Positions 3,490-51,772 of a DNA stretch of 64,000 bases are shown here, piece after piece. Numbering within the stretch: the stretch's first letter is position 1; every line of letters starts with the position of its first letter. The DNA is from Enterobacter sp. kpr-6 (lineage in GTDB: Bacteria; Pseudomonadota; Gammaproteobacteria; Enterobacterales; Enterobacteriaceae). The stretch covers positions 1-64,000 of the forward strand of contig NZ_FOYH01000004.1 in NCBI RefSeq assembly GCF_900116015.1. Direction: 5' to 3'. The notes below the pieces were generated by a model that worked only from the letters and a program-made list of their open reading frames with translations, did no database searches and had not been told where the DNA came from. The position numbers and the translations under genes were made by a program.

Positions 3490-4827
3490 ATGATCAATCG
3501 CGTTAAAAAATGGCTGTTAACGGCGCTGGTGCTGATGAGCACGCAGGCCGGAGCAGCAAGTTTGTCAGATATTCAGGTCTCCAACGGCAACGACCAGGCA
3601 CGCATAACGCTGAGCTTTATGGGCGATCCCGACTATGCCTTCTCGCAGGACGGCAAGCGCAGCGTGGCGCTGGATATCAAACAGACCGGGGTGATTCAGG
3701 GGCTGCCGTTGCAGTTTAGCGGTAACAATCTGGTGAAATCGATCCGCTCAGGTACGCCGAAAGATAATCAGTCGCTGCGTCTGGTGGTCGATTTAACCCA
3801 AAACGGTAAAACCCGCGTGGCGAAGCAGCAAAACGGCGCGAATTATACGGTGGTATTTACCATCAATGCCGATGCGCCGCCGCCCCCTCCGCCACCGCCG
3901 GTGGTGGCGAAGCGCGTTGAGACGCCTGCCGTTGCGCCGATGGTGACGCCGCGTCCTGCACAGCCTGCGCGTAATCCCTTCAAAAATGAAAATGACCGCA
4001 TGACCAGCGTGACCAGTAGCAATACGGTGACTCGTCCGGCGATGCGGGCGAGCAGCGCACCGGGTGAGAAAGTGATCATCGCGATCGACGCCGGGCACGG
4101 CGGGCAGGATCCGGGCGCAATTGGCCCCGGCGGGACACGTGAGAAAAACGTGACGATTTCTATCGCCCGCAAACTGCGTACGTTGCTCAATGACGATCCG
4201 ATGTTTAAAGGCGTCCTGACCCGTGATGGCGATTACTTTATTTCGGTGATGGGCCGTTCTGACGTGGCGCGTAAGCAAAACGCCAACTTCCTGGTTTCCA
4301 TTCACGCCGATGCCGCACCAAACCGCGATGCGACCGGGGCGTCGGTATGGGTGCTTTCAAACCGTCGCGCCAACAGCGAGATGGCAAGCTGGCTTGAGCA
4401 GCATGAAAAGCAATCCGAACTGCTGGGCGGGGCCGGAGATGTGCTGGCTAACAGCCAGTCCGATCCTTATCTCAGTCAGGCGGTACTGGATTTGCAGTTC
4501 GGTCATTCGCAGCGCGTCGGGTATGATGTCGCGGTCAATATGTTAGGCCAGTTGCAGCGCGTCGGTTCCCTGCATAAACGTCGCCCGGAACATGCAAGTC
4601 TGGGCGTGTTGCGCTCGCCGGATATCCCGTCGGTACTGGTTGAAACCGGATTTATCAGCAACAGCGGCGAAGAGCGTCTGCTGGGCAGCGATGATTTCCA
4701 GCAGCAGATTGCGGAGGCGATTTATAACGGCCTGCGTCAGTACTTCCAGGCGCATCCGATGCAGTCCGCACCGCAAGGCGCGGGCCAGACGGCAAGCGCC
4801 GCCTCACCGGGTGCGTTCGTCAACTAA
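3490..4827 (+). CDS. amiB: N-acetylmuramoyl-L-alanine amidase AmiB
   Basis: AmiB is a periplasmic zinc amidase that splits septal peptidoglycan during cell division after activation by EnvC. The 445-residue product has a Sec signal peptide ([10 protein letters not shown] ... QAGA), an AMIN septal-targeting domain at about residues 25-130, a run of eight prolines followed by a Pro/Ala/Thr-rich linker, and an Amidase_3 domain from about residue 195 ([34 protein letters not shown]). The start at 3490 gives the E. coli length; the frame is open further upstream to 3424 but that part overlaps tsaE and lacks a signal peptide. mutL follows after 9 bases. Confidence 0.96.
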
Positions 4828-4836
4828 GGAGATTTC

Positions 4837-6693
4837 ATGCCGATTCAGGTTCTGCCGCCTCAGCTTGCGAACCAGATCGCCGCAGGCGAAGTGGTGGAGC
4901 GCCCTGCGTCGGTGGTGAAAGAGCTGGTGGAAAACAGCCTTGATGCGGGCGCGACCCGCATCGATATCGATATTGAACGCGGCGGCGCAAAGCTCATCCG
5001 CATTCGCGATAACGGCTGCGGCATTAAAAAAGAAGAACTGGCGCTGGCGCTGGCGCGTCATGCCACCAGTAAAATCGCCTCGCTTGACGATCTGGAAGCC
5101 ATCATCAGCCTTGGGTTTCGCGGTGAGGCGCTCGCCAGTATCAGTTCGGTATCACGCCTGACGCTGACTTCACGCACCGCCGATCAGCCGGAAGCCTGGC
5201 AAGCCTATGCCGAAGGGCGCGAGATGGACGTCACCGTCAAACCCGCTGCGCATCCGGTGGGCACCACCCTTGAAGTGCTGGATCTGTTTTACAACACCCC
5301 CGCGCGCCGCAAATTCATGCGCACCGAAAAAACCGAATTCGGACATATCGATGAAGTGATCCGCCGCATCGCGCTGGCGCGTTTTGACGTCACCATCAAC
5401 CTCAATCACAACGGGAAAATGGTGCGCCAGTACCGTGCGGTTCCGTCAGGCGGGCAGAAAGAGCGCCGCCTGGGGGCCATTTGCGGGCTGCCGTTCATCG
5501 AACAGGCGCTGGCGATTGAGTGGCAGCACGGCGATTTAGGTATGCGCGGCTGGGTGGCCGATCCGAAAACCACCACCACGGCGTTCGCGGAAATTCAGTA
5601 TTGCTACGTCAACGGGCGCATGATGCGCGACCGTCTGATTAATCATGCGATTCGTCAGGCGTGCGAAGACAAACTGGGTGCCGATCAGCAGCCCGCGTTT
5701 GTCCTTTATCTGGAGATCGACCCGCATCAGGTCGACGTCAACGTGCATCCGGCAAAACACGAAGTGCGTTTCCATCAGTCGCGGCTGGTGCATGATTTTA
5801 TCTATCAGGGCGTACTGAGCGTGCTGCAACAGCAGATGGAGACGCCGTTGCCGCTGGCGGATACGCCCGCACCCGTGGCGCGAAGCGTACCGGATAATCG
5901 CATTGCTGCAGGCCGTAATCAGTTTGCGGAACCTGCCGTGGCCCGTGAACCTGCGGCGGAGCGTAATTCCGCGCCGCGCAGTGGGCACAGCGGTGGCGGG
6001 AACGCAGGCTGGCCGAATGCCCAGCCTGGCTATCAGAAAAAGCAAGGGGCGCTCTACCGACAACTGCTGGATACGCCGGAGAAAGTTGAACCTGTCGCCC
6101 CTGCGCCCGCACCTTCAGTTCCTGCACTCGACGGACACAGCTACAGTTTTGGTCGCGTATTGACCATTATCGGCCAGGACTGCGCGTTGCTGGAGCGGGC
6201 AGGGCAGGTGGCGCTTTTGTCGCTGCCGGTCGCCGAGCGCTGGTTTAAGCAGGCGCAACTGACGCCGGGGAGTACGCCATCGTGTGCACAACCGCTGCTG
6301 ATCCCGGTACGGCTGAAAGTGACCGCAGAAGAGAACGCGGCCCTGAAGCGCGCTCAGGCTATGCTGACCGAAATGGGCATTGAATTTCAGTCAGACGCCC
6401 ATCATGTGACCATTCGCGCGGTACCTTTACCCTTGCGCCAACAAAATTTACAAATCTTGATTCCTGAACTGATAGGCTACCTGGCGCAGCAGACGACGTT
6501 CGACGCGGCAAATACCGCTCAATGGTTTGCCCGTCATCTGGCAAGCGATCATCCCCAGTGGAGTGTGGCCCAGGCCATTAGCTTGCTGGCAGATGTCGAG
6601 CGTTTATGTCCGCAACTGGTGAAATCACCGCCGGGTGGCCTGTTACAACCTGTTGATTTACATTCGGCGATGAACGCCCTGAAACATGACTGA
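4837..6693 (+). CDS. mutL: DNA mismatch repair protein MutL
   Basis: MutL couples mismatch recognition by MutS to the MutH endonuclease and UvrD helicase. The 618-residue product has an N-terminal GHKL ATPase domain ([42 protein letters not shown] near residue 90, [10 protein letters not shown]), the transducer domain with [10 protein letters not shown] and [13 protein letters not shown] near residue 300, a low-complexity Ala/Pro linker at about 335-430, and a C-terminal dimerisation domain. There is no DQHAxxERI endonuclease motif, as expected where MutH is present. An AAGGAG ribosome site precedes the ATG, and miaA overlaps its end by 8 bp. Confidence 0.98.
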
Positions 6694-8116: not shown

Positions 8117-9397
8117 TTGTTTGACCGTTATGATGCCGGTGAGCAGGCGGTACTGGTACACATCTATTTTTCGCAAGACAAAGATATGGAAGACCTCCAG
8201 GAGTTTGAATCTCTGGTCTCTTCCGCCGGTGTCGATGCAATGCAGGTGATTACCGGTAGCCGTAAAGCGCCGCACCCAAAGTATTTTGTTGGTGAAGGTA
8301 AGGCAGTTGAAATAGCGGAAGCCGTGAAGGCGACAGGTGCATCGGTCGTGCTCTTCGATCATGCGCTAAGCCCGGCCCAGGAACGCAACCTGGAGAGACT
8401 GTGCGAGTGCCGTGTTATCGATCGTACAGGACTGATTTTAGACATTTTTGCCCAACGTGCACGTACCCATGAAGGTAAGTTGCAGGTTGAACTGGCGCAG
8501 TTGCGTCATATGGCTACGCGCCTGGTGCGTGGCTGGACCCACCTTGAACGACAGAAAGGCGGGATTGGTTTGCGCGGTCCGGGGGAAACCCAGCTCGAAA
8601 CCGACCGTCGTTTGCTGCGTAATCGCATCATGCAAATCCTTTCGCGGCTTGAGAAAGTTGAAAAGCAGCGTGAGCAAGGGCGTCGCTCCCGTCAAAAAGC
8701 CGATATTCCGACCGTGTCGCTGGTGGGTTACACCAACGCCGGCAAATCGACGCTGTTTAATCAGATTACCGAGGCCCAGGTTTATGCCGCAGACCAGTTG
8801 TTTGCGACCCTGGACCCGACCCTGCGCCGCATTGATGTTGCGGACGTGGGAGAGACCGTGCTTGCGGACACGGTAGGTTTTATCCGCCATTTGCCACACG
8901 ATTTAGTTGCCGCGTTTAAGGCAACGTTGCAGGAAACCCGGCAGGCGACGCTACTGCTGCATGTGGTTGATGCGGCAGATGTGCGCTTGCAGGAAAACAT
9001 AGACGCAGTGAATACGGTACTCGAGGAGATTGACGCTCACGAGATCCCCACGCTGCTGGTTATGAACAAAATCGATATGCTGGATGATTTTGAGCCACGT
9101 ATCGACAGGGATGACGAAAATAAACCGATTCGGGTTTGGCTTTCTGCGCAAACCGGTGTGGGTGTACCGCTGTTATTCCAGGTGTTAACCGAACGTCTTT
9201 CCGGTGAAGTGGCGCAGCATACGTTGCGTTTACCGGCCAAAGAAGGGCGTTTGCGAAGCCGCTTTTATCAGCTTCAGGCGATTGAAAAAGAGTGGATGGA
9301 GGATGACGGTAGCGTCAGCATGCAGGTGCGCATGCCGATCGTCGACTGGCGTCGCCTCTGTAAACAAGAACCTGCATTGGTGGACTACGTTGTCTAA
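8117..9397 (+). CDS. hflX: ribosome-splitting GTPase HflX (TTG start)
   Basis: HflX is a GTPase that dissociates stalled or heat-damaged 70S ribosomes. The 426-residue product has the N-terminal HflX domain ([30 protein letters not shown]), the GTPase domain with G1 GYTNAGKST near residue 205, G3 DTVGFI and G4 NKID, and a C-terminal domain. The reading begins at a TTG codon (8117) preceded by GAGGAG at a good distance; the conserved [11 protein letters not shown] sequence starts immediately after, so the unusual initiator is well supported. It lies in the hfq-hflX-hflK-hflC arrangement. Confidence 0.96.
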
Positions 9398-9466
9398 CCG
9401 GCGTATCACCTGAAGATATTTCCCCCTGGTGGGGGCATCACCGCATAACAAATATGGAGCACAAAC

Positions 9467-10723
9467 ATGGCGTGGAATCAGCCCGGTAATAACGGACAAG
9501 ACCGCGACCCGTGGGGCAGCAGCAATAAACCCGACGGTAACTCTGGGGGAAATAAAGGTGGTCGCGAACAGGGGCCGCCCGATCTGGATGATATTTTCCG
9601 CAAGTTGAGCAAAAAGCTCGGCGGTCTGGGCGGTGGTAAAGGCACCGGTTCAGGCGGCGGCAGCTCATCGCCAGGGCCGCGCGCGCATCTGGGTGGACGC
9701 GTTGTCAGCATCGTTGCTGCGGCGATCGTCATTATCTGGGCCGCCAGCGGTTTCTACACCATTAAAGAAGCCGAGCGCGGTGTTGTTACCCGTTTCGGTA
9801 AATTCAGCCATCTGGTAGAGCCAGGCCTGAACTGGAAACCGACGTTTGTGGATAACGTGACGGCGGTTAACGTTGAAGCAGTTCGCGAACTGGCGGCATC
9901 CGGCGTGATGCTGACGTCTGACGAAAACGTGGTGCGCGTAGAAATGAACGTGCAGTACCGCGTCATTGATCCGCAACACTATCTCTTTAGCGTGACCAGC
10001 GCAGACGACAGCCTGCGTCAGGCGACCGACAGCGCCCTGCGCGGCGTAATCGGCAAATACACTATGGATCGCATCCTCACTGAAGGCCGTACCGTTATTC
10101 GTAGCGATACCCAGCGTGAACTGGAAGAGACCATCAAGCCGTACAACATGGGTATTACCCTGCTGGACGTCAACTTCCAGGCTGCGCGTCCGCCGGAAGC
10201 GGTACAGGCTGCGTTTGATGATGCGATTGCCGCACGTGAGAACGAACAGCAGTCCATCCGTGAAGCAGAAGCTTACGCTAACGAAGTGCAGCCGCGTGCT
10301 AACGGTCAGGCACAACGTATTCTGGAAGAAGCGCGCGCCTACCGCACACAGACTATTCTGGAAGCGCAGGGTGAAGTGGCGCGTTTCGCCAAAATCCTGC
10401 CGGAATATAAAGCCGCACCGGAAATTACCCGCGAGCGTCTGTATATCGAAACCATGGAAAAAGTGCTCAGTCATACCCGCAAAGTGCTGGTTAATGACAA
10501 AGGCGGCAATCTGATGGTGCTGCCACTGGATCAAATGCTGAAGGGCGGTAACGCGTCTACCTCAAAAGGTAATACCAGCAGCGCCAATGATCTGTTGCGC
10601 CTGCCGCCTGCGTCTACCTCTGGCAGCGGGGCAAATTCAGCGCCTGCCGCTAATCAGGGCGACATCATGGACCAACGCCGTGCTAACGCGCAGCGTAACG
10701 ACTACCAGCGTCAGGGGGAATAA
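9467..10723 (+). CDS. hflK: FtsH protease regulator HflK
   Basis: HflK is an inner-membrane SPFH-family protein that forms with HflC a large cage around the FtsH protease and modulates degradation of membrane proteins and lambda CII. The 418-residue product has a Gly/Asn-rich cytoplasmic N-terminus, one membrane segment near residues 80-98 (VVSIVAAAIVIIWAASGFYTI), the SPFH/band-7 domain beginning EAERGVVTRFGKF, a long coiled coil with alternating Glu/Ala/Arg, and a Ser/Asn/Ala-rich tail. It is 2 bases from hflC. A small CCCCCtggtGGGGG hairpin lies in the 69-bp gap after hflX. Confidence 0.96.
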   Translation: MAWNQPGNNGQDRDPWGSSNKPDGNSGGNKGGREQGPPDLDDIFRKLSKKLGGLGGGKGTGSGGGSSSPGPRAHLGGRVVSIVAAAIVIIWAASGFYTIKEAERGVVTRFGKFSHLVEPGLNWKPTFVDNVTAVNVEAVRELAASGVMLTSDENVVRVEMNVQYRVIDPQHYLFSVTSADDSLRQATDSALRGVIGKYTMDRILTEGRTVIRSDTQRELEETIKPYNMGITLLDVNFQAARPPEAVQAAFDDAIAARENEQQSIREAEAYANEVQPRANGQAQRILEEARAYRTQTILEAQGEVARFAKILPEYKAAPEITRERLYIETMEKVLSHTRKVLVNDKGGNLMVLPLDQMLKGGNASTSKGNTSSANDLLRLPPASTSGSGANSAPAANQGDIMDQRRANAQRNDYQRQGE

Positions 10724-39409: not shown

Positions 39410-41404
39410 TTATTTTTTCTCGTCAGCAAAAATCTGGGCAAACATCGGCACCAGCCGTTTATTCCCGCTCTCGCTCAGATGATTATCATCCTGATAAAGC
39501 GGCTTGAGATCTTTACTCCCGGTACAGATATCGCCTGTACACAGCCAGGGCACCGGATCGAGCAGCTTCACATTACACTGGCGTGCCGCCTGCTCCTGTG
39601 CGTTGAGCACAAAATCGTTATGCTTTTTATAGGCCGCTACCGACGCGCTGATATCTATCGGCTTCTTGCCGGTCATAATGGCTCTGGCCAGCGTATTCGG
39701 CACGTTGACCGGCATTTCCGGCATCGGTTTCACCAGATACACAGGATGGCTGGCGCTTAATGAACACAGCTTTTCAACGAAAGCCTGGGTGAATTTGCGC
39801 TTTTCCGTTTCGCTGTCTTCCACCACGCTATTATCAAAACTGACCAGACGCTCATCAATATAATGGGCAGAGCGGTTAACAATAACCACGGGAACAGAAG
39901 GGGGATATTGAGTCAGCATCTTTTCCAGCGAATTATTAAAGTCATAACAATTCTTATGGCTTGGTTGCAGCGAACGGGCGCGGGATAAGGTCGGGCAGCC
40001 AGGATTAATTAATCCCACCACCGAGCTATTTTCACCGGCCGCCTCCGCTAAAGCCGTTGCGGTACTTTGCGCATGGCTGTCGCCAATAATAATGGCGCGT
40101 AATTTTCCTTCGCCATAATGACTGATAAACGATTTTTCATTGACCTGATGATTGGTGTTGCTGATTTCAGCCGTAATACTTTCAATCAGCGGTTTGTCTT
40201 TTGCATTAAGCCTGTCGCTGCGGGTCAGCATACTTAAGGTATAGATCAACGCCACGCTGCATAATAAAACCAGGCCAAACTGCGGGCGTGAGCAGGCGGT
40301 GAGAAATTTCTGCGACGGCTTTTCAAGGTATTTCCAGGATAACCATCCCAGTATCAGTGAGACGATAACGCCGCCCGTCAGCCATGCCGGACTATGGAGT
40401 TTTTCGGCATAATTAAGAAATACCACCACCGGCCAGTGCCATAAATAGATTGAGTAAGAGCTGAGGCCAATCCAGCGAATTTCCGGGCGATAGAAAAGCG
40501 GCAACGACTCAATGCGGGCGAGCAGCACCAGCATGGTGCCTACCACCGGGATCAGGGTCATCACGCCCGGCCAGCGCATCGTCGGGGACATAAAAGCAAT
40601 GGCTGCGACAATTAACGCATAACCCAACAAGGCGCTCGCCCGGCGCACGCTATCCGGCAGCCGGGCATTTTGTGCCGCGTAGCAGACAATACCGCCGCAC
40701 AGCATTTCCCACGCCCGAAATGGCATCAGGTAGAAGGGCGACGAGCTGTTTGCCAGTGGGTAAAGATAGCCTAAAGCAAAAGAGGCCACCGCCAGCACGG
40801 ACAGCATGAAGACCGGCCGCATCACGCGACCAAAGCGGAACCAGGCCATTAACAGCAGCGGTAACAGCAAATAAAACTGCCACTCAACCGATAAAGACCA
40901 GGTGTGTAATATCCACGAGTCGTGGGAATCGGCGGCAAAGTAATTATTCGACTCTTTATTTAAGCGAATATTAGAAATAAACAAAATGACGTAGCCGAGA
41001 TAATATCCCAGGCGTTTAAATTCGATATTCGGCAGCCAGTACCAGCCCAGCGCAAAAAGGAAAATGCACAGAAAAAACAGGGCGGGAATAATGCGCTTAC
41101 ATCGATTAATGTAAAAATCAATCAGGCGAAAGGACCCATTCTCAAGGCCGGTTGCCACTATTTTGGTCATCAAAAAACCGGAGATGACGAAAAAGACATC
41201 GACGCCCGCAAAGCCACCCGGCGCAAGCGAGGTCGGGAAATGGTAAAAAATCACCGCCAGGATCGCGATGCCACGCAGAAAATTTATGTCGTCTCTGAAA
41301 CTCACTCGGGTGCGTTCAATGGGTTGAATCTTAAGTGACGAGTGATGTGCGTTAGTGGAGGTCAACATAAGTCCCATAAAAAATTTAACAACATTCATGG
41401 GCAT
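39410..41404 (-). CDS. OafA/YrhL-type acyltransferase with SGNH domain
   Basis: A 664-residue inner-membrane protein. The N-terminal acyltransferase-3 domain (about residues 36-395) has around ten helices, the catalytic His in FYHF (residue 55), the GVDVFFVISGFLMT segment and SLSVEWQFYLLLP. The C-terminal periplasmic SGNH domain has the nucleophile motif GDSHA (441-445) and the Asp-His pair in DDNHLSESG near the end. Proteins of this layout O-acetylate lipopolysaccharide O-antigen or other surface glycans; the target is unknown here. It is inserted between ytfK and ytfL relative to K-12. Start is unclear: ATGs at 41404, 41398, 41377 and 41368 are in frame, with the best ribosome site for the last (652 residues). 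Confidence 0.9.
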   Translation of the reverse strand: MPMNVVKFFMGLMLTSTNAHHSSLKIQPIERTRVSFRDDINFLRGIAILAVIFYHFPTSLAPGGFAGVDVFFVISGFLMTKIVATGLENGSFRLIDFYINRCKRIIPALFFLCIFLFALGWYWLPNIEFKRLGYYLGYVILFISNIRLNKESNNYFAADSHDSWILHTWSLSVEWQFYLLLPLLLMAWFRFGRVMRPVFMLSVLAVASFALGYLYPLANSSSPFYLMPFRAWEMLCGGIVCYAAQNARLPDSVRRASALLGYALIVAAIAFMSPTMRWPGVMTLIPVVGTMLVLLARIESLPLFYRPEIRWIGLSSYSIYLWHWPVVVFLNYAEKLHSPAWLTGGVIVSLILGWLSWKYLEKPSQKFLTACSRPQFGLVLLCSVALIYTLSMLTRSDRLNAKDKPLIESITAEISNTNHQVNEKSFISHYGEGKLRAIIIGDSHAQSTATALAEAAGENSSVVGLINPGCPTLSRARSLQPSHKNCYDFNNSLEKMLTQYPPSVPVVIVNRSAHYIDERLVSFDNSVVEDSETEKRKFTQAFVEKLCSLSASHPVYLVKPMPEMPVNVPNTLARAIMTGKKPIDISASVAAYKKHNDFVLNAQEQAARQCNVKLLDPVPWLCTGDICTGSKDLKPLYQDDNHLSESGNKRLVPMFAQIFADEKK

Positions 41405-42852: not shown

Positions 42853-43253
42853 ATCTTATCCGGCGTGTAGCCAGATCCTCGGAAGGGAAGGGTTGAAAAA
42901 CTAAGGGTTAAAACGGTGTGAAATCAAGCCCAAAAGGTGTGGGCCAGCAATTTCAGGGCTTAGTATAGCCTAAGCCCCACTGAGGCTGCCAGCAGTGTAA
43001 GCGGAACGTTACATGGCGGCATAGTGGCTTACTTCGATCCATTACATTTACTGATAGATGATGGCTTTCATTTTACAGATGGTTTAAATTCATTCTGATT
43101 GTAAGGTTTTCCTTAAGCGGCACCATTACCAGGTTAATTGCATTAAGAAGTCGGGGAGAAGCGCCGGGACACAACGTGTTTTTCTTGATGAATGTAAGTT
43201 TATTGTTATCAGTTTGATACGAGCGATTTTAACCTATTTGAACAGGATAGATA
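42853..43253. other. intergenic region between ytfL and the metallopeptidase-like gene
   Basis: Four hundred bases without a gene, between two divergently read genes. On the minus strand GGGCTTAG-GCTATA-CTAAGCCC (42957-42978) is an inverted repeat that contains a possible -10 (TATACT) for ytfL. The part 43000-43253, A/T-rich, should hold the promoter of the downstream plus-strand gene; a CTATTTGAACAGGATAGATA ribosome-site region precedes its ATG. Confidence 0.5.
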
Positions 43254-44030
43254 ATGGCCCGAATTATACTTGCCGATGCGGAGCAGTGGCAGAACAGCGA
43301 TACAGAAGTATTGCAGGTTATTCTTAAGGGTACCTGCACCTCTTTTGCCGAAATAATGGGTTACGAGCTTGAGAAAAACATTATTGTCAGTAATCGATTA
43401 GGGGACGATCCCCCGATGATTTTCTATCCGCAGGACTCTGTGGAAGACCGCGAAAATTACAAAATTGCCCTCAATATTCCTGATGTCAGCGACTGGGGCG
43501 AGATCATCTATCAGTTTTCTCATGAAGTGGGCCATGCGTACTGCCAGTATTTTAAAGCCCCGGTGCATAAACAGAAATGGTTCGAAGAAGCGCTCTGTGA
43601 AGCGATTGCCATGAGTAATTTGCATTACATGTTTCATCACTGGGACACGCTGGGTTTAGCGGACGATCCGCGCGTTAATGCCCTGCGCGAGGAGCCCCTG
43701 CGCTGGCTTAATGAAAACCTGCGCGATGTGCCGAAAGACATTTCCACCGCCAGAATTTTAGAATTTATTAATACCTGCCTGCCGGTATTTGAAATTAAAA
43801 GCATCACCAAAATCTGGGACCAGGATAATACAAATAAACTCAGAGCCATCTCTTATTATTTGTGTGCGAACCTGTTTTATAACGATGTGCATCGCTGGAA
43901 AGCGGTGAAATATTTCAATGAATGGGACACCAGCGCGGATAAAAACTTTGCCGATTTCATGAGGAACTGGGTAAAGCATGGCGACGATAACGTCAAACTG
44001 GTGGTCACAACGCTAGGTTTTGTTTTTTAA
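43254..44030 (+). CDS. uncharacterised HExxH metallopeptidase-like protein
   Basis: A 258-residue protein with no signal peptide or membrane helix. The centre holds the zinc-binding motif HEVGH at residues 90-94 in FSHEVGHAYCQYF, followed after 17 residues by WFEEALCEAIAMSN, a glutamate-rich helix that could supply the third zinc ligand as in gluzincins. This suggests an M1/M61-like fold, but no closely related family was recognised. Its GC content is lower than that of its neighbours, with ATT, ATA and TTT codons, a sign of transfer. The flanking genes are ytfL and a three-oxidoreductase operon. Function is unknown. Confidence 0.8.
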   Translation: MARIILADAEQWQNSDTEVLQVILKGTCTSFAEIMGYELEKNIIVSNRLGDDPPMIFYPQDSVEDRENYKIALNIPDVSDWGEIIYQFSHEVGHAYCQYFKAPVHKQKWFEEALCEAIAMSNLHYMFHHWDTLGLADDPRVNALREEPLRWLNENLRDVPKDISTARILEFINTCLPVFEIKSITKIWDQDNTNKLRAISYYLCANLFYNDVHRWKAVKYFNEWDTSADKNFADFMRNWVKHGDDNVKLVVTTLGFVF

Positions 44031-44065
44031 AAACGCGCGCAGACCCGGCGCATCGGGTCTGCGCG
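44031..44065 (-). terminator. terminator of the three-oxidoreductase operon
   Basis: CGCGCAGACCC and GGGTCTGCGCG form an 11-bp stem around an 8-nt loop; on the minus strand a CGCGTTTTTAAA tail follows. It overlaps the end region of the convergent metallopeptidase-like gene, which reads plus. Confidence 0.8.
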
Positions 44066-44073
44066 GCGGAACG

Positions 44074-45096
44074 TCACGGTAAAATATCCACCCACTGCCG
44101 CATCTGTGATGAGCGGTAAAGGGCGTCGACGACTGCCTGCGCGCGGGCGGCATCGTCAAGCGTGGCGTAATCGTCTTTTCCTTCCTCACGCACGGCGGCA
44201 TAAAACTGGCTGATAGCCTGCTGGTGTCCATCCCCCCAGTAACACTTCGCATCGCCTTCCGGCGGCGCATCGCAGGCCAGCAGGGTGCGTTCATTTTCCG
44301 TGATGCGCCAGAGCCGGCTTTCCTCCAGACGTAACAGCCCCCGCTCGCCGTGGATCTCCAGTTGCAGCGGCGAATCCGTGCTGTAGCAGGTGGTGGCGTG
44401 AAACACGCCGTGCGCGCCGTTGGTAAACCTCAGCATCGCCATCGCGCTGTCTTCTGTTTCGATGATGTCACTGAGCAAGGTACTGTCCACGACGCCTTTC
44501 ACCCGGCTGACGCCGCCCGCAAACCACTGCATCAAATCCAGAGTGTGAATGGCCTGGTTAATCAGCAGGCTGCCGCCTTCGGTGGCAAAGCGTCCGCGCC
44601 AGCCGCTGTCGGTGTAATATGCGCCACCGCGCGACCAGGTGAGGCTTGCTTTCATGCCGCGCATGTCGCCAATGCTGCCCTCACGTAATTGCTGCCGGAT
44701 GGCCTGGCTGGTGGGGTTATGGCGGTTCTGAAAACAGACGCCGAGCCGCCCCTTTGCTTCAGCGGCGGCCTGGCGGATCAGCGACACCTCCAGCAGATTC
44801 AGACCGACCGGCTTTTCGCTGAACACATGTTTACCGGCGGTCAGCGAGGCGATGATCATCTCCCGGTGCAGATAATGCGGCGTGCAGATATGCACCGCAT
44901 CAATATCTTTATCCCGCAGCATCTCGCGGTAATCCACGTAATAGCGGCAATCATAGCGGCGGGCGAGTGCCGCGCCTTTCTCCCGATCGCTCTCCACCAG
45001 CGCGGTGAGATGCACCCCCGGCGTATGCCGCAGTCCCTCCACATGGCAGGTATGGATCGCCCCCGCGCCGATAAGCGCGACGTTAAGCCTGTCCAT
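44074..45096 (-). CDS. Gfo/Idh/MocA-family oxidoreductase 1
   Basis: A 340-residue NAD(P)-dependent sugar-oxidoreductase homologue. The N-terminal Rossmann fold starts LNVALIGAGAIHTCHVEGLRH, the hinge has SEKPVGLN with the catalytic Lys, and the C-terminal alpha/beta domain has GGSLLINQAIHTLDLMQWFAGG with the conserved His. The substrate cannot be named. The start ATG at 45096 overlaps the upstream stop by one base (TGATG), so translation is coupled. Last gene of the operon, before the hairpin at 44036-44065. Confidence 0.9.
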   Translation of the reverse strand: MDRLNVALIGAGAIHTCHVEGLRHTPGVHLTALVESDREKGAALARRYDCRYYVDYREMLRDKDIDAVHICTPHYLHREMIIASLTAGKHVFSEKPVGLNLLEVSLIRQAAAEAKGRLGVCFQNRHNPTSQAIRQQLREGSIGDMRGMKASLTWSRGGAYYTDSGWRGRFATEGGSLLINQAIHTLDLMQWFAGGVSRVKGVVDSTLLSDIIETEDSAMAMLRFTNGAHGVFHATTCYSTDSPLQLEIHGERGLLRLEESRLWRITENERTLLACDAPPEGDAKCYWGDGHQQAISQFYAAVREEGKDDYATLDDAARAQAVVDALYRSSQMRQWVDILP

Positions 45097-48743: not shown

Positions 48744-49994
48744 TCACATAAGCCTTGGCAACAGACTAAACACATTACCAAACCAGCACACTATCACCAC
48801 AACCCCGAAGGTAATCACAATGACTGGAATGACGCGCCCGCCCCACACGGTAAACATTTGATCCGGGAATTTTTGCCGGGACTTCAGCGCCAGTATCGCA
48901 GGAATAATCACCGCCCAGATGGTTGCGCATAACCCCGCGCCACCAATACCGTAAATAAACCCATTCGGGAAAAACAAATACAGGATCGTCGGTGGCAGAA
49001 AGGTCAGCAGGATAGTTTTAAAACGGCCGCTGTGGGAATTAGTAAATTTAAATAAATCTGCCAGGAAATCGAACAGGCCCAGCGTGACACCAAAAAAAGA
49101 ACTCGCTACGGCCAGATTCGAGAACACCAGTAAACAAAACTCGATCATCTTACTCTGGTTGGTGCCAAGGAATGAGTTAACCAGCGCGTCAACATTCCCG
49201 CCTGAGGCGATAATACCTTTAAACGCTTCGCGCGAGATATTACCCATCGTGCAGTAGAGCCAGAATAAATAAATGAGCAGGGCAAGAGAGGAGCCAAATA
49301 CAATGCTTTTTATTAACTTATCTTTTCTCTTGCCATAACAGATGATAAGGCTGGGAATATTTCCATGGAAACCGAACGAGGCCAGGCATACAGGGATCGC
49401 CATAAAAATATAAGGAAAGAAGGAGCGGCTTGCTTCGCTTGCGCCATCAGTCCCGCGTAAAATCGTGTAATCGACCTGAAAGAAAAACGAACCAAAGACG
49501 ATCACAAACGCGAGGATCTTAATGCCGAGAAAAAGGGAGGTGATCCTGCTGGCCGCCAGTGAGCTAAACCATAAAACGGCGGCAACAAAAAGTGCCGTGC
49601 AAACGCCGATGATCTTTGGATTAACATGCTCTCCTGAGTGCATGGAGATCGTTTCACTGATAATTGCGCCGTTAGCGGAGATATAGGCATACGTCAGAAT
49701 ATACAACACGAAAGCGACGGTAAGGCCGCTGAAAATATTCCATTTATTGCCGAGTAAATCTTTGGTGATAGTATTAAAACTCGAACCAACAGGGTAATTT
49801 AAATTGGCTTCCAGTAACAATAAACCCGAGTGCAGCATTGAAAACCAGGCGATAATCAATATGAACGCACCCCAAAAAAACCAGGCACCTGCAAGATCAA
49901 CGGGTAAAGCAAACATCCCCCCACCAATTACGGTTCCGGCAATAACCATAATTCCCCAAAACGATGAATGCCTGGTATTGGAACTTTCTTCCAT
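48744..49994 (-). CDS. tnaB: low-affinity tryptophan permease TnaB
   Basis: A 416-residue HAAAP-family proton symporter with about eleven membrane helices, beginning MEESSNTRHSSFWGIMVIAGTVIGGGMFALP, which carries the conserved GxVIGGGMFALP motif. It matches E. coli TnaB in length and sequence and imports tryptophan for the tryptophanase encoded upstream, from which it is separated by 109 bases. A GAGG ribosome site precedes the ATG. Confidence 0.93.
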   Translation of the reverse strand: MEESSNTRHSSFWGIMVIAGTVIGGGMFALPVDLAGAWFFWGAFILIIAWFSMLHSGLLLLEANLNYPVGSSFNTITKDLLGNKWNIFSGLTVAFVLYILTYAYISANGAIISETISMHSGEHVNPKIIGVCTALFVAAVLWFSSLAASRITSLFLGIKILAFVIVFGSFFFQVDYTILRGTDGASEASRSFFPYIFMAIPVCLASFGFHGNIPSLIICYGKRKDKLIKSIVFGSSLALLIYLFWLYCTMGNISREAFKGIIASGGNVDALVNSFLGTNQSKMIEFCLLVFSNLAVASSFFGVTLGLFDFLADLFKFTNSHSGRFKTILLTFLPPTILYLFFPNGFIYGIGGAGLCATIWAVIIPAILALKSRQKFPDQMFTVWGGRVIPVIVITFGVVVIVCWFGNVFSLLPRLM

Positions 49995-50103
49995 GTGAGC
50001 CTCTTATCTGGTGTTATATATCATTATTAGTGCTTTATATTTTTATGGTGTATGAAGGATAAATGGCTATAGGTTATAGCCATTTATCGCGGGGGAGGGA
50101 TGA

Positions 50104-51519
50104 TCAGATCTCTTTCAGTTTGGCGGTAAAGTGACGTAACACTTTAGGCTCATAAGTGAAGGTCAATCCCTTTATATTTTTGGCATTTTCTTTCACATGG
50201 CTGAAGGCTTCGATAATAAAATCCATATGCGACTGGGTGTAGGTTGCGCGTGGGATCGTTAAGCGCAGCAGTTCAGCCGGGCAGGGTAATTGCTCCCCGG
50301 TTTTCGGATCTCTGCCCAGCAGGAATGAACCAATTTCCACCGCTCTGATGCCCGCCACTTTGTATAACTCACAGGCAAGCGCCTGCGCCGGGAACTGCGC
50401 GGCAGGGATATGAGGCAATAATTTACCGGCATCAACAAACGCAGCATGTCCCCCGGCCTGCTGGCAGGTCACACCAATGGCTTCAAGACCGTCAACCAGA
50501 TACTGGATCTGGGTAATGCGATAGGCCAGCCAGTCCTGATTCATCCCGTCACGCAGCCCCACGGCCAGGCGTTCCATGGCCCCGCCTTCCAGACCGCCAT
50601 AGGTGGGGAAGCCTTCCTGAACGACGCAAAGGGTCCGGCACTCGGTATACACATCAAAATAACGATCGTCTTTGATGCACAATAATCCGCCCATTGGCAC
50701 CATCGCATCTTTCTTCGCCGACATCGCCAGCATATCGGCATATTTATAAGTCTCACGCGTAATCTCTTCGATGCTCCAGTCCTGATAACCGGGTTCGCGT
50801 TGCTGAATAAAATAAGCGTTTTCTGCAAAGCGTGCGGAATCCATGACCACCGGAATATCGTATTTTTGCGCAATCTCATACATCGCTTTCAGGTTGGCCA
50901 GAGAGACGGGCTGGCCACCCGCGGAATTACAGGTGATAGTAGAAACAATATAAGGGACATTATTTGCGCCAACTTCCTGGATACCTTCTTCCAGCTTATC
51001 CAGTTCAAAATCGCCTTTAAAGTCATAACGCGCGGCGGTATCAAAGGCTTCTTTGATATAAACATTTCGCACCGTACAGCCGTTTATCTGGCTGTGGCCC
51101 TGGGTGGTATCAAAGAAATAGTTTGAGAACGCCACCATTTTTGACCGGTCGAGGCCTTTTTCCTGTTCGCGCTTGCGAATTAATACCGGAATATAAATCT
51201 GTTCAGCGCCGCGTCCCTGGTGGGTGGGAATGGTGTACTGGTAACCGAAAATATTTTTTACCGCTTCGGCAAGGGCGTAATAACTCCGGCTGCCGCTGTA
51301 GGCTTCATCGCCGCGCATCATGGCGGCCTGCATATTCTGGGTCACGGCCCCGGTACCGCTGTCGGTCAGCAAATCAATAAACACATCTTCGCTGTCAAGC
51401 AGGAAGGGGTTCATACCGGAGTTAATAATCGCCTTTTCACGATATTCACGGGTGGTACGTTTTACCGGTTCAATAACACGAATACGAAAGGGCTCTGGCA
51501 AATGTTTAAAATTATTCAT
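50104..51519 (-). CDS. tnaA: tryptophanase TnaA
   Basis: TnaA is a cytosolic PLP enzyme that splits tryptophan to indole, pyruvate and ammonia. The 471-residue product begins [18 protein letters not shown] and contains [40 protein letters not shown], the PLP-lysine region [17 protein letters not shown] and the C-terminal [18 protein letters not shown]. It is close to E. coli TnaA. The start at 51519 is the family one; the frame upstream to 51564 lies in the transcribed leader. Expected to be induced by tryptophan through tnaC and by CRP. Confidence 0.98.
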
Positions 51520-51772
51520 TGTATAATCCTTTACTAAATTAATATGTTGCTTGTAGCGATCCACCGATGATGAATCACCAGGGTTATCTGAAGAGGTCTG
51601 TTTTAATTAAGGCGTGCGCGTGCGCTCTGTATTTCCTGAGACTATCTTTTCGCATACCAAAAAAGAGGCGTGCGAACAGATTAACTGCGGATATACAGCC
51701 AGTGGCCTGAATTATACAGAATCAGCGAAACAAACAGCGTTATCTGTTTATTTGCCTGGAAGAAGGGGGGAG
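51520..51772 (-). promoter_or_regulatory. tnaC-tnaA spacer (rho-dependent termination region)
   Basis: The 253 bases after the tnaC stop start CGCCCTTAACTCCCCCCTTCTTCC on the minus strand (CGCCCTTAACTCC shown in part), a boxA-like and C-rich, G-poor entry suitable for Rho loading, as in E. coli where Rho terminates in the spacer unless the tryptophan-stalled ribosome blocks its access. No rho-independent hairpin was seen. A plus-strand frame at 51614-51841 is only a shadow. Confidence 0.6.

Follow-up and report, generated by a model that had tools for sequence, protein, structure and literature searches.

The predicted structure of the protein described here is that of an M1-type gluzincin catalytic domain, an assignment that we regard as well supported. 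We see an even chance that the protein is an intracellular zinc endopeptidase used in phage–host conflict, Lit-like in action and carried as a single mobile gene. The reading of a cytosolic zinc endopeptidase that would stop infection joins the fold of the protein, its missing leader, the mobility of its gene, and the genomic context of its relatives. The gene and the islet that holds it lie in a window of 64,000 nucleotides, the whole stretch of Enterobacter DNA that was analyzed (Table 1).

Table 1. Positions in the window of the islet, the gene, and their features
Feature	Position	Strand	Basis or remark
Islet, replaced by ~65 bp in two same-genus genomes	42975..44091		flank alignment; edges approximate
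12-nt direct repeat, left copy near islet edge	43001..43012	+	may be chance
Gene for 258-aa protein with predicted M1-like gluzincin fold	43254..44030	+	ATG start
HEVGH, residues 90–94 (H90, E91, H94)	43521..43535	+	conservation; predicted zinc role
WFEEALCEAIA, residues 109–119 (W109, E112)	43578..43610	+	conservation; predicted ligand role
Terminator-like hairpin directly 3′ of gene, oriented for convergent operon	44036..44065	−	consensus match only
12-nt direct repeat, right copy, 11/12 identical	44066..44077	+	may be chance

The AlphaFold model of the window protein has a pLDDT of 92.2 and a pTM of 0.91. A structure search of such a model had been proposed in the preliminary description, and when run it returned M1-type matches with VIA-align and no PDB match below 0.001 with Foldseek. 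The top PDB match by Foldseek, to an M61 peptidase (7xyo, E = 0.02), is not significant, and M61 is absent from the Pfam matches of 60 members of the family. Over the Foldseek candidates, VIA-align ranked M1 aminopeptidase catalytic domains on top, the best being the M1 tricorn factor F3 with a Z score of 12.8 (209 residues, rmsd 4.0, model residues 1–257), a value that mostly helical models can reach through a common arrangement. We trust the M1 match for three reasons. Of the 50 rows listed, one is a TFIID chain, and the titles of all others name M1-type aminopeptidases or LTA4 hydrolase. An independent model, made for a phage member (pLDDT 92.1), likewise has its best match in a protein of the aminopeptidase N family (Z score 11.8). 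Finally, the HExxH...W-x-x-E arrangement coincides with the M1 signature. An uncharacterized phage protein is a further structural match at E = 4.6e-7. Two features of gluzincins (clan MA) are present: in the sequence, an HExxH motif with a Glu further downstream, on the helix that follows, and in both models, the catalytic-domain fold.

The likeness to M1 aminopeptidases (PF01433) extends over the whole window protein and includes HExxH followed by W-x-x-E, yet the family differs from them in several respects. The GxMEN motif (G.ME[NT]) is found in 0 of 60 rows of our alignment, the N-terminal β domain of M1 enzymes is missing, PF01433 matches none of the 60 members at E = 0.1, and an hhalign comparison joins only 42 active-site columns (E = 0.037). 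Because GxMEN is absent and there is no room for the N-terminal β domain, an endopeptidase seems likelier than an aminopeptidase, and we predict endo- rather than exopeptidase action for the window protein.

HEVGH followed by WFEEALCEAIA had initially been read as a metallopeptidase pattern, and the alignment bears this reading out. Across the 60 diverse rows aligned, Q87, H90, E91, H94, W109, and E112 never vary (60/60), E111 (58/60), E116 (59/60), and P54 are near-invariant, and the column spacing from H94 to E112 ranges from 15 to 24 residues (17 in the window protein). This alignment (A3) consists of the window protein, 57 of 60 representatives obtained by 65% clustering of 110 sequences, and L012 and L022; L006, L007, and L010 were left out. 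Conservation of the putative active site across the family is well supported, with H90 and H94 as predicted zinc ligands, E91 as the predicted catalytic residue, and E112 as the predicted third zinc ligand. The window protein does have two peculiarities, a Trp at position 151 where 56 of 60 aligned rows have Tyr and the absence of an R..N pair (R in 53/60 rows and N in 47/60), which may mean that its activity is altered or gone. These changes, together with a related copy that is broken elsewhere, would fit a binding protein or a decaying copy that has kept its fold and no longer cuts. We find that explanation very unlikely for a gene whose zinc-site residues and reading frame are intact and whose close relatives L002 and L003, at 51–52% identity, are intact as well.

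The preliminary description had recognized no family for this protein, which holds at the level of named sequence families but not for the fold, which is a known one. The best Pfam match of the window protein has an E value of 0.11; searches of NCBIfam, PHROGs, and PADLOC gave no match, the PDB sequence search gave chance-level matches only, the plasmid search gave nothing at 1e-5, and E. coli genomes gave no match at the DNA level. The relative L004 has weak matches to four Mesorhizobium plasmid records. Profiles were needed to find relatives, as single-sequence scans of genome contigs and viral contigs found none. A profile search of the viral contigs then located relatives at 27 loci, and profile A7, built from leaderless forms, retrieved no relative in a viral scan. 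Bacterial relatives number 211 by tblastn, of which the best 80 were analyzed. Across the 60 members, 18 Pfam families were matched at E = 0.1; a search for PF10463 gave 0 of 149, with its controls equally without a match, and PF13485 gave one match below the cut-off across 75 genomes. Members were seen in Planctomycetota, Verrucomicrobiota, Pseudomonadota, Acidobacteriota, and phages, and no paper in the open-licence PMC literature was recognized as describing them. The family is real, broad, unnamed, and protease-like, with a known fold.

Relatives of the window protein fall into forms with and without a leader. By reading, the window protein has no hydrophobic N-terminal stretch and was labeled leaderless by hand, and a hydrophobicity scan of close relatives L002–L004 found no leader, consistent with the cytosolic location without export signal suggested earlier. 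Leader counts lean on judgment because borderline rows were moved by eye: a script cut-off labeled 49 of 100 rows as leadered, the shifts raised this number to 69, and L025 was called leaderless. In a 100-row tree (quick, with long branches and a midpoint root; L131 and L132 were left out as the motif was not found), the 69 leadered rows are mostly together, with three label changes. The leaderless rows form a phage group of 14 rows, a bacterial clade of 10 rows (support 99), and an enterobacterial group of four rows that includes the window protein (SH-aLRT 98), with L051 from Pseudomonas separate. The ORF of L010 (positions 4653–6254 of that locus), which groups with leadered forms, runs into transposase-like sequence on a contig that is labeled viral and may not be phage. 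Most of the relatives found look exported, and the leaderless ones look mobile. With an exported-looking majority, this is not a defense family overall.

Several observations address how the gene came to be in this genome. It was not found in any of three other same-genus genomes; two of these align on either side of the islet of about 1.1 kb and have a short sequence in its place, and in the third the alignment covers the left flank only. The GC content of the gene, 0.455, is the lowest among the 46 non-overlapping window ORFs that reach 150 aa, for which the mean is 0.565 and the second-lowest value 0.459, confirming the A/T-richer composition noted in the preliminary description and, with the empty site, supporting its suggestion of an acquired gene. 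The near-identical repeats by the islet edges are perhaps the trace of an insertion or exchange. From translations and the usual gene order, we take the flanking genes to encode a YtfL-like protein on one side and Gfo/Idh-like dehydrogenases with a LacI-type regulator on the other. No defense gene was recognized among the neighbor translations. A second AT-rich patch, at 48744–51564 (GC 0.46–0.50), presumably encodes a TyrP-like transporter and a tyrosine-phenol-lyase-like enzyme, judging from translations. The gene at 39410–41404 (GC 0.498) adjoins the YtfL-like gene and is possibly acquired too; its product is presumably a membrane protein that resembles acyltransferases and whose C-terminal part is SGNH-like.

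The gene is present in a single copy in its own genome. Intact enterobacterial copies occur in three other genomes as single genes at three other sites, one of them beside a serine recombinase. A fourth copy is broken, being split over two contigs, carrying in-frame stops, and lying beside transposases (L127, L158, L159), close to what is presumably, judging from translations, an rpoS–mutS pair. Matches were found in 5 of 392 Enterobacteriaceae genomes (a total that includes the own genome and the broken copy), in 2 of 295 at the order level with profile A1 (one partial, own genome counted), and in 3 of 369 at the class level (own genome counted). The sparse presence in Enterobacteriaceae, the differing gene neighborhoods, and the empty site make it well supported that the gene is mobile and was horizontally acquired in this genome. 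An enzyme for housekeeping or peptide clearance that has moved among genomes without any conflict role would agree with the fact that most relatives found look exported and sit among ordinary genes, and M1 enzymes do trim peptides. Such a role is unlikely, however, in light of the sporadic presence at the family and class levels, the carriage by phages, and the operon described below.

In all four annotated streptococcal records (Javan115, Javan169, the satellite Javan289, and MissG1), the gene is on the integrase strand, opposite to the adjacent early genes. Many neighbors are co-directional in L008 and in R10.1, whose copy comes from a Lacticaseibacillus lysogen, and the antisense placement is not universal. 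A small convergent ORF that overlaps or abuts the 3′ end of the gene in the four streptococcal phages and in R10.1 was considered as a partner and rejected, as its sequences in Javan115 and R10.1 are unrelated; it appears to be an early gene of the usual kind that lies at a cargo site. The phage copies in or near the lysogeny region bring to mind a regulatory protease of a mobile element that, like ImmA, would cut a repressor or other regulator and so control lysogeny or a stress response, for which the available part of the ImmA account offers a precedent (PMC2701414). The M78/IrrE-ImmA proteins (PF06114) are likewise phage-associated HExxH proteins, and 18 of 60 members show similarity to them. 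That similarity is weak (best E = 8.2e-5) and does not extend to the window protein, an HTH partner was not seen, including in the operon-linked clade, and the enterobacterial copies are solitary genes with no prophage around them, all of which makes ImmA-like regulation unlikely.

Further context that favors phage conflict comes from the leaderless bacterial clade, in which 7 of 10 rows have a PDC-S27 ATPase gene directly upstream (L040, L042, L047, L062, L063, L072, and L111; L046, L059, and L066 lack it). The seven loci come from MAGs named Dadabacteria (three), Bryobacterales (two), Acidobacteria, and Aminicenantes. At six of the seven, the ATPase stop and the protease start could overlap by one base, and L042 has a gap of about 9 nt. 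A PDC-S27 profile search matched six loci with E values of 1e-113 to 1e-153 at positions that fit the upstream gene; L111 was counted among the seven since its contig carries the ATPase tail at its end, with the PDC-S27 piece scoring 5.6e-39. The PADLOC tally gives seven PDC-S27 proteins, with that of L040 in two pieces. The upstream ATPase of L063 matches Pfam ATPase_2 and DUF234. PDC-S27 is a partner gene in one leaderless clade, not a homologue. In the portion of its description available to us, it is an unvalidated PADLOC phage defense candidate presented as a single-gene system (PMC12988326). Of 14 control genomes, 5 also give a PDC-S27 match, and the window genome gives none (0/1). The stop–start overlap suggests that the protease acts together with PDC-S27 in this clade; stand-alone copies without PDC-S27 must be triggered otherwise.

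Other defense-type genes lie near some of the leaderless loci, namely AbiE (L047 and L063), HipA and GmrSD (L063), and TOTE (L059), and L051 has SIR2_2 and DUF2971 as neighbors. The neighbor scans covered 11 leaderless loci, chosen without the enterobacterial and phage loci, and 10 randomly drawn leadered loci. In these small samples, the PADLOC component matches are loose and the results cover 25 of 76 families for the leaderless loci; the leadered controls, among 25 of 43 families listed, gave methyltransferase for two proteins and PD-T4-6 and mad6 for one each. A general abundance of AbiE or HipA genes in these MAGs may account for their presence here. The two methyltransferases apparently come from the near-identical planctomycete-type loci L061 and L071, where a DNA-methyltransferase-like gene adjoins a leadered relative (near 8310–9781). 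Of the roles first guessed at for the window protein (a toxin-like or regulatory protease, or a defense-associated enzyme), phage conflict or defense appears best supported by the context of the leaderless relatives, making it a plausible phage-conflict enzyme.

The closest functional parallel that we see is Lit of the E. coli prophage e14, also a single-gene, intracellular HExxH protease, which is prophage-borne and adjoins an integrase gene. In the part of the account at hand, Lit excludes T4 and cuts EF-Tu upon T4 infection (PMC3014915). Homology was rejected: the profile comparison joins only 22 columns (E = 0.061), Peptidase_U49 is not among the members' Pfam matches, and Lit has no WFEE motif, unlike the window protein. 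We take Lit as a model for the most likely mode of action, not as a relative. LfgB was likewise rejected as a relative; in the available part of its source it is a JAB-type prophage protease, unrelated to this family. In the proposed mechanism, the M1-type gluzincin catalytic domain alone would make up the whole protease, with H90, H94, and E112 holding zinc and E91 activating water. The protease would be latent or very specific until phage infection, upon which a host or phage protein would be cut and the infection would fail.

A broader proposal, which we put forward tentatively and hold to be doubtful, is that leaderless members make up a new class of effector directed against phages, an endopeptidase with an M1 fold that a phage would trigger. 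Its one-gene form would be the one carried by phages, satellites, and enterobacterial islets; its two-gene form would add the ATPase–nuclease PDC-S27, either as the sensor of infection or as a restraint on the protease. To our knowledge, bacterial immunity has few effectors that are proteases. Even without a defense role, the family represents a broad unnamed group of M1-like domains. If the proposal is true, PDC-S27, a single-gene candidate, would gain a translationally coupled partner in one clade, and phages, a satellite, and bacterial islets would have in common a compact, single-gene, zinc-dependent effector that is simple to test.
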